Source: Candidatus Rokuibacteriota bacterium
GTDB lineage: Bacteria; Methylomirabilota; Methylomirabilia; Rokubacteriales; CSP1-6
Assembly: GCA_003220345.1 (NCBI GenBank)
Contig: QHSC01000078.1
Location: forward strand, 1 to 64,000
Direction: 5' to 3'
DNA: 64,000 nucleotides
A program made the translations under genes and the position numbers. Numbering within the stretch: the first letter of the stretch is position 1; every line of letters begins with the position of its first letter. Of this stretch, positions 1,344 through 55,911 are shown in pieces. The notes below the pieces were generated by a model. That model was not told the origin of the DNA, ran no database searches, and saw nothing but the letters and a program-made list of their open reading frames with translations.

Positions 1344-1474
1344 CTACTCAGCCCTCGCCTCGCCGCTCTCGTCGCCTGCGGCTCCTCGGCAGCGTCTCGG
1401 CTCGAACATCATTCAGCCCTCGCCTCGCCGCTCTCGTCGCCTGCGGCTCCTCGGCAGCGTCTCGGCTCGAACAT
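1344..1474 (-). repeat. Two tandem 65-bp repeat units, each a 21-codon mini-ORF with TGATG coupling
   Basis: Read on the minus strand, the spacer holds two almost identical 65-bp units. Each unit is an open frame from ATG to stop encoding MFEPRRCRGAAG followed by DESGEARAE. The TGA of one unit shares its A with the ATG of the next (TGATG), which sets the 65-bp period (66 nt minus one). Starts are at 1474 and 1409; the second copy ends in TAG at 1344-1346, and the dehydrogenase ATG follows at 1342. A related unit lies before rpsB at 52372-52440. No known repeat class was recognised. Confidence 0.8.
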
Positions 1475-1635
1475 CATTCAGCCCTCGCCTCGCCGCTGAT
1501 CCACTCAGCCCTCGCCTCAGGGCTACGCCCTTCGGCTCGAACTGCCAGGCCTGCGGGATTGACCCAACTCTCGCCTCGCGACGGCCAGGCGCCGTCGTTC
1601 AGCTTGAAGAGCGGGCCGCGTCTCAGCTCGAACAT
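1474..1635 (-). other. 53-codon mini-ORF, divergent first member of the repeat chain
   Basis: The pdxA stop codon overlaps an ATG as TGATG at 1633-1637. The frame opened there runs 53 codons to a TGA at 1474, which again overlaps the next ATG. It begins MFELRRGPLFKLNDG and ends in EARAE, the same ends as the 21-codon units downstream. The middle contains RAEGRSPEARAEW, which looks like a second internal copy of the unit end. No known domain was recognised. Whether it is translated as a peptide or serves only as a coupling spacer cannot be told from sequence. Confidence 0.5.
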
Positions 1636-52315: not shown

Positions 52316-52371
52316 GCAACACGCAGTTAACTCGCACGATCGCGAGCTTCGGTGCCCGGCTGCAGTGCTGA

Positions 52372-52440
52372 ATGAGCTTCGAGCTGAGACGTGACCGAGC
52401 CCCGTGAGGGGCCGGGCGCGGCGAAGCGAGGGCTGAATGA
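52372..52440 (+). repeat. Mini-ORF repeat unit before rpsB, related to the units at 1344-1635
   Basis: From the ATG at 52372 it reads MSFELRRDRAP, TGA, then GAGRGEARAE and a TGA at 52438-52440. The next ATG (52437) is 65 bp later, the same period as at 1344-1474. Shared elements are GCTGAATGA, TTCGAGC-GAGACG and GCGAGGGCTGAATGA. The centre differs: here a hairpin CCCCGTGAGGGG. It occupies the region where the rpsB 5' end and ribosome-binding site are expected. Confidence 0.7.
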
Positions 52441-55134: not shown

Positions 55135-55911
55135 ATGCCTCTCAAGTCAGGCGTGACGGCGCCGGAGCTTTCCACGCTCGGAGAGCGGGAGCTCCGCGAG
55201 CGGGTCCTGTCCCGCCCATTGCCCCGACACGTTGCCATCATCATGGATGGGAACGGTCGATGGGCGACCTCCCGCGGGCTCCCGCGCGTGGCTGGCCACG
55301 GCGAGGGCGTCAAGTCCGTGCGCAGCGTCGTGCGGGCGGCGGGCGAAGTCGGCATCGAGTACCTGACGCTCTACGCCTTCTCCTCAGAGAACTGGAACCG
55401 CCCGAGCCACGAGGTCTCCACGCTCATGAGCCTGCTCGAGCGGTCGATCGATCGCGAGCTGCCGGAGCTCATGGCGCGCAGCGTCCGCTTCCGCGTCATC
55501 GGACGTCCGAATGGGGTGCCCGCCGAAGTGCAGCGTCGCATCGACCACGTCGTGGAAGCGACCGCGGCCAACACGGGCCTCAACCTGCTCATGGCCTTCA
55601 ACTATGGAGCGCGGGACGAGATTGTCGATGCCTGCCGTCGCCTGGCGCGTGATGTCGCCGAAGGCCGACTCGGCCCGGAGCAGATCGACGAGGTGCGCCT
55701 GGGCCGGGCCCTCTACACGGACGGCGTTCCCGACCCGGATCTCCTCATCCGCACGAGCGGCGAGATGCGGCTGTCGAACTTCCTGCTCTGGCAGATCGCC
55801 TACACGGAGCTCTGGGTGACGCCCACTCGCTGGCCGGACTTCGAGCCGCGCGACCTGTATCTGGCCGTGGCCGATTTCCAGCAGCGCGACCGCCGCTTCG
55901 GGCGGGTTTGA
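55135..55911 (+). CDS. uppS: Undecaprenyl diphosphate synthase
   Basis: 258 residues from ATG 55135 (a GTG at 55126 is in frame). RHVAIIMDGNGRWA (31-44) carries catalytic D38; SSENWNRP and the C-terminal PDLLIRTSGEMRLSNFLLWQ follow. It makes the C55 carrier for cell-wall synthesis by cis-prenyl transfer. A short AGGAG sits right before the ATG. The stop overlaps cdsA. Confidence 0.94.
   Translation: MPLKSGVTAPELSTLGERELRERVLSRPLPRHVAIIMDGNGRWATSRGLPRVAGHGEGVKSVRSVVRAAGEVGIEYLTLYAFSSENWNRPSHEVSTLMSLLERSIDRELPELMARSVRFRVIGRPNGVPAEVQRRIDHVVEATAANTGLNLLMAFNYGARDEIVDACRRLARDVAEGRLGPEQIDEVRLGRALYTDGVPDPDLLIRTSGEMRLSNFLLWQIAYTELWVTPTRWPDFEPRDLYLAVADFQQRDRRFGRV

Follow-up and report, generated by a model that had tools for sequence, protein, structure and literature searches.

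The window, a 64,000-nt stretch of a Candidatus Rokuibacteriota genome (contig QHSC01000078.1), carries on its minus strand a PdxA-family gene followed by a gene of the isocitrate/isopropylmalate dehydrogenase family, and the 292 nt that separate them are occupied by one 155-nt repeat unit and two 65-bp units (Table 1). Three mini-ORFs joined by TGATG/ATGA overlaps run through these units, with a single base (1343) left between the stop of the third and the dehydrogenase ATG. Mini-ORF 1, with the peptide MFELRR...SGEARAE, also has an in-frame CTG with a 4-nt overlap with the pdxA TGA, and mini-ORF 2 has an alternative start at ATG 1477, which would give 22 codons and a -4 overlap (ATGA) with the stop of mini-ORF 1; the peptides of mini-ORFs 2 and 3 are both MFEPRRCRGAAGDESGEARAE. 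Read directly on the minus strand, the mini-ORF coordinates and peptides given by the first-pass annotation of this DNA proved right to the base. The 65-bp period that it described is also present, but as one among several unit lengths, next to the 155-nt unit and modules of about 37 nt. Its argument that the frame is kept although the units differ has to be dropped, given that both 65-bp units are identical and the first frame belongs to a different, longer unit; two identical units lend no independent support to frame retention.

Table 1. Features of the pdxA–dehydrogenase junction and a second copy of the repeat family in the window.
Feature	Position	Strand	Remarks
PdxA-family gene (pdxA2-like), upstream	2672-1635	minus	Pfam PF04166, E=1e-108; stop TGA 1637-1635
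Isocitrate/isopropylmalate dehydrogenase-family gene, downstream	1342-263	minus	Pfam PF00180, E=4e-92; ATG at 1342
Long repeat unit, 155 nt, head TTCGAG to tail GCTGA	1632-1478	minus	two short hairpin modules nested inside; orthologue in sister genome G003 (L142) at the same junction
Nested module 1: TTCAAGCTGA, stem, GAGGCGAGAGTTGG	1563-1608	minus	boundaries by eye, from family patterns
Nested module 2: TTCGAGCCGA-AGGGC-GTA-GCCCT-GAGGCGAGGGCTGA	1505-1541	minus	exact core match; fold
65-bp unit, copy 1	1413-1477	minus	missing from the orthologous G003 site
65-bp unit, copy 2	1348-1412	minus	sequence identical to copy 1
Mini-ORF 1, 53 codons	1635-1474	minus	ATG shares one base (A, 1635) with the pdxA TGA; stop TGA 1476-1474 within GAATGATG
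Mini-ORF 2, 21 codons from ATG 1474	1474-1409	minus	stop TGA 1411-1409
Mini-ORF 3, 21 codons	1409-1344	minus	stop TAG 1346-1344
GAGGG, Shine-Dalgarno-like	1352-1356	minus	9 nt ahead of the dehydrogenase ATG
Second family copy, between same-strand genes	52364-52440	plus	repeat match

The segment in the window has 51-56 matches in its own genome (G000) and many in four sister genomes, and this abundance, together with stop-to-start mini-ORF chains in excess of shuffled sequences (below), argues that it did not arise by chance. The exact core of the family, defined by the pattern TTCGAGCYGA-N(9-39)-GAGGCGAGGGCTGA, was found 25 to 194 times per genome in 5 of 5 genomes of one Rokubacteria genus, with the highest copy number in G003, and in 0 of 52 further genomes searched from the same taxonomic family (57 in total); the reversed pattern, used as a control, gave 0 matches in the same genome set. 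The closest relatives of the dehydrogenase mark the source organism as a Rokubacterium. No core was found in viral contigs, Rfam covariance models gave 0 matches to the window region up to E=1, and a search for literature on intergenic repeats of Rokubacteria returned nothing relevant. Units come in several sizes, from a minimal module of about 37 nt and a short unit of about 59 nt to the 65-bp and 155-nt units, the last of which looks by eye like a short unit into which two modules have been nested. We read the family as a dispersed hairpin repeat, presumably mobile now or in the past, that persists at coupled junctions in a form through which ribosomes could pass.

From its conserved arms, covarying stems and nested copies, the repeat unit is a predicted hairpin module. 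The variable stem, compared across 119 distinct modules, has a paired fraction of 0.815 at its outer positions, where 500 shuffles of the partners never exceeded 0.672, and the next stem outward also covaries (GCY/GGC, GTT/GAC, GGT/GCC), being fully paired in 102 of 119 modules against at most 86 in shuffles. In 65-bp-type units the stem occurs as CGCT/AGCG, CGTG/CACG, CGGG/CCCG, CACT/AGTG, CATG/CATG and CGCG/CGCG, with 0.875 paired and at most 0.802 in shuffles. All these shuffle controls are lenient, since the copies are related, and for the outermost stem the covariation test gave no support. The search pattern itself prescribes GA/GA internal loops that separate the stems, and these loops hence serve as description only. 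Because single-sequence folds barely beat shuffled sequences (z -0.6 to -1.6), it is the covariation that carries the hairpin structure. The consensus is unchanged across all copy orientations, and the conserved foot of the hairpin, TTCGAG/GAGGCGAGGG, is not a classical REP tetranucleotide.

Taken as a whole, the family has no fixed orientation to genes, and most copies lie outside tight junctions. A census over 860 kb of contigs gave 43 elements, of which 16 were sense, 11 antisense, 10 divergent and 3 convergent; in gaps with at most 40 nt to spare, 4 of 4 were sense. In an enlarged set of 172 elements, which adds selected loci, the ratio of sense to antisense was 49:5 where the room was at most 40 nt (binomial p=4e-10) and 40:27 at loose sites, but this set includes sister-genome loci picked as orthologues of sense junctions, and the fair figure is therefore that of G000 alone, where repeat sequence was the sole means of finding copies and tight junctions held 17 in sense and 2 in antisense orientation. 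Both antisense cases look like gene-calling artefacts. The position of the repeat at these junctions is as regular as its orientation: in 25 sense copies, several of them at orthologous sites and thus not all independent insertions, the upstream TGA lies exactly 2 nt before the head TTCGAG (TGA+2), a spacing that necessarily puts the NTG of an NTGA into the frame of TTC GAG. ATGA is found in 15 of these 25, compared with an A before the TGA in 21% of all TGA-ending genes. TGANN stands before the head in 28 of the 41 junction copies and in just 3 of 40 loose sense and 8 of 61 other copies, and so does not belong to the repeat itself. The TGA+2 register is also seen in one copy before a convergent gene (G000:C79), with a closed frame, which indicates that it can arise without coupling and argues that targeting contributes to it; at three further sense sites and one convergent site the head directly follows a TAG.

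Five distinct loci have a long unit (140-175 nt) at a TGA+2 junction; in four of them the head frame is open, and in the fifth it meets a stop directly ahead of an ATG. Elsewhere 0 of 13 long units (9 in non-sense orientation and 4 loose sense) are open, with 1-6 stops each (Fisher p about 0.002 for the difference, by hand). The long unit of the window is also open in the head frame. When all unit sizes are taken together the excess is modest, with 13 of 23 open at TGA+2 junctions versus 10 of 33 elsewhere (p=0.06). That the frame is lost at other sites speaks for selection maintaining it at junctions, and the open junction copies, between which 12 to 25 of the 51 codons differ, are not all recent. 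Mini-ORF chains that span the junction from stop to start were found in 12 of 23 junction copies, compared with 3.1 on average and never more than 8 across 200 dinucleotide shuffles; the complete relay is thus present in about half of the tight sense copies, the others being interrupted, of insufficient length, or in the same frame as the downstream gene. GAGG, GGAG or AGGA lies 4-16 nt ahead of 38 of 46 element-borne starts versus 47% of all genes, where starts in both groups alike were called by an in-house program that favours Shine-Dalgarno motifs, and where the anti-Shine-Dalgarno sequence is an assumed one, the 16S 3' end having been searched for in the genome and not found. At L135:6373-6508 (G003:C28) and L140:6478-6639 (G003:C146) the repeat frame continues into the downstream gene, and the downstream proteins could there carry a repeat-encoded N-terminal extension from an ATG that overlaps the upstream stop.

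In sister genomes the junction is often free of the repeat, as in AAATGATCAGG, AAGTGAAGG, AAAATGACTCG, GGCATGAGCG and CTGTGAAATAC, which are ATGA or GTGA overlaps, and at several filled sites (A/G)TGA flanks the repeat on both sides. In another Rokubacterium (L066) pdxA and the dehydrogenase gene overlap directly as ATGA. At the same junction G003 has the long unit alone, so the two 65-bp units were either gained in G000 or lost in G003.

We consider it probable that the segment consists of tandem copies of a dispersed hairpin repeat, specific to one genus, which sits at a co-directional stop/start junction and works there in the manner of the mycobacterial MIRU; its translation, the coupling and the mobility of the family we infer from sequence. 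What sequence comparison shows is the existence of the family, the register at junctions, the orientation bias, the retention of the frame at junctions more than at other sites, the covariation, the empty sites and the lack of constraint on the peptide. With the head TTCGAG 2 nt past the upstream TGA, an NTG overlapping the stop, or an ATG following it, would start a mini-ORF in the open frame of the repeat, and a ribosome terminating at the upstream stop could re-initiate on it. The ribosome would then pass through the repeat, crossing each tandem copy by way of a further TGATG/ATGA overlap, and would terminate next to the downstream start, behind the GAGG motif of the repeat tail. We propose that by such a relay an insertion at a coupled junction would leave the genes coupled. 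The suggestion in the first-pass annotation of a coupling spacer is largely borne out by the junction orientation, the TGA+2 register, the junction-biased frame and the roughly half of the copies that close at the downstream start, but the frame is not universal: its expectation that copies would always keep ATG-to-TGA frames fails outside tight junctions, where they are mostly closed. It had also held that random orientation or closed frames would count against the idea, and here the outcome is divided, as tight junctions nearly always hold sense copies but copies elsewhere lie in any orientation.

Two other explanations leave the relay out. If the repeat simply inserts by preference at stop codons or NTGA overlaps, its orientation and register would be set by the target, and open frames would mark young copies or an open founder. 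Such neutral targeting would account for the TGA+2 copy with a closed frame before a convergent gene, for the heads placed straight after TAG and for the (A/G)TGA found on both ends at some sites, yet it fits poorly with long units that are open at junctions and closed at each of the 13 sites elsewhere with a unit of that size, with the excess over shuffles of frames that end at the downstream start, and with the age implied by the codon differences among open junction copies; we regard it as unlikely. Alternatively, the repeat could act as a REP-kind hairpin in RNA or in single-stranded DNA, in transcript stability, termination or as a transposase substrate, with an incidental coding frame. 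The pairing of the variable stem and of the second stem beyond shuffled values, and the single consensus shared by copies of every orientation, are what such an element would show, but the orientation bias, the TGA+2 register and the junction frame retention would be left unexplained, and REP-type Y1 transposase genes are missing in G001 and in the copy-richest G003, while G006 has one and no repeats. This we judge to be improbable.

The frames could also be peptide genes, the alternative offered by the first-pass annotation for the MFEPRR...EARAE repeats, and the open copies are indeed alike at their N- and C-termini. However, the 53-codon frame compared between the window and G003 has dN 0.08 and dS 0.12 (dN/dS about 0.7), with substitutions spread about evenly over the three codon positions, against dN/dS of 0.038/0.344 and 0.044/0.423 (about 0.1) for the two flanking genes in the same genome pair. 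Moreover, nonsynonymous changes predominate among paralogous copies, a Pfam search of the mini-ORF peptides gave no match, and the shared peptide ends are the DNA arms of the repeat, kept equally in antisense copies. Judged from these substitutions, the frame is preserved and the amino acids are not, so the mini-ORF is read as a spacer that would preserve coupling rather than as a peptide gene, and a function of the peptides themselves appears very improbable. An artefact in assembling tandem repeats in a metagenome-assembled genome would explain why the 65-bp units are identical to each other and absent at the G003 site, but is hardly credible given the long unit at the same junction in this sister genome and the presence of the family in five genomes. 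More tentatively, and with considerable doubt, the family may be a new kind of mobile hairpin element that seeks stop/start overlaps, inserts between the overlapping codons, duplicates (A/G)TGA on both sides and brings with it an open frame, a GAGG and a stop, by which coupling would be restored.

Among known systems the closest resemblance is to the MIRU (Supply et al. 1997, as described in review PMC12548453, beyond which the open literature yielded nothing on the MIRU insertion site), short dispersed and partly tandem repeats at operon junctions whose internal ORF overlaps the start of the neighbour and whose insertion does little harm to the downstream gene. The Rokubacteria repeat, compared with the MIRU by description only, shares the dispersed and tandem arrangement at operon junctions and the internal ORF that overlaps its neighbours. 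An ORF coupled by start/stop overlap is found in the 25 TGA+2 copies with an overlapping NTG, in keeping with empty ATGA/GTGA sites, though not in all copies, and the orientation of the adjacent genes is followed 49:5 at tight junctions but is mixed over the whole family. The differences are that the MIRU belongs to another phylum, and that in the Rokubacteria repeat the hairpins covary, copies are nested within others and many copies lie away from junctions, facing either way. MIRUs are described as without dyad symmetry. Because of its hairpins and its many copies outside junctions, which set it apart from MIRU descriptions, we do not class the repeat as a MIRU.

With REP/BIME elements and their RAYT (Y1) transposases the repeat has in common short dispersed intergenic hairpins, many copies and a conserved foot sequence; the junction register and the open frame are features of the Rokubacteria repeat and not of REP. 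A Y1/RAYT transposase was considered as the mobiliser and rejected, being absent in G001, G003 and G004, found as single matches in G000 and G002, and present in the repeat-free G006. BOX elements of Streptococcus and ERIC are modular or palindromic intergenic repeats with a variable number of units, as is the present family, but to our knowledge they are not tied to stop/start overlaps and keep no mini-ORFs there, whereas the Rokubacteria repeat is fixed at many such overlaps and carries mini-ORFs. Rickettsia palindromic elements are likewise hairpin repeats compatible with translation, but they lie in frame inside genes and the Rokubacteria repeat lies between them.

These comparisons suggest that MIRU-like repeats acting as a ribosome relay may have arisen independently in a distant uncultured phylum. 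If that is so, the toleration of insertions at coupled junctions would be a general evolutionary solution and not a mycobacterial oddity. Its numerous copies, clean empty sites and variant hairpins make the family a natural experiment on whether selection acts on translational coupling, on how far a relay can reach, and on whether intergenic open frames must encode useful peptides.

One copy of the repeat, L099:6148-6235 (G000:C119), lies directly 5' of a gene whose product starts, by eye, like the carbamoyl-phosphate synthase large subunit, which suggests that operons of central metabolism also carry the repeat. In roomy intergenic regions the hairpin module occurs as an inverted pair within a palindromic composite of about 250-300 nt with the outer sequence aagttgcgagcca...tggcgaagcaaattggccc (G000:C105:99748-99961 (L115), G003:C1:40010-40180 and 55583-55802, G003:C28:24364-24537 and G000:C326:8242-8409), and its stems vary between copies. 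Weaker, diverged relatives of similar layout, often with heads that begin GTGCGAGCC, were found in other genera of the same taxonomic family, at L042 and L060 (G021), L043 (G030), L044 (G017) and L046 (G033); the relative at L044 directly follows a TAG, and that at L046 fills a tight same-strand junction.
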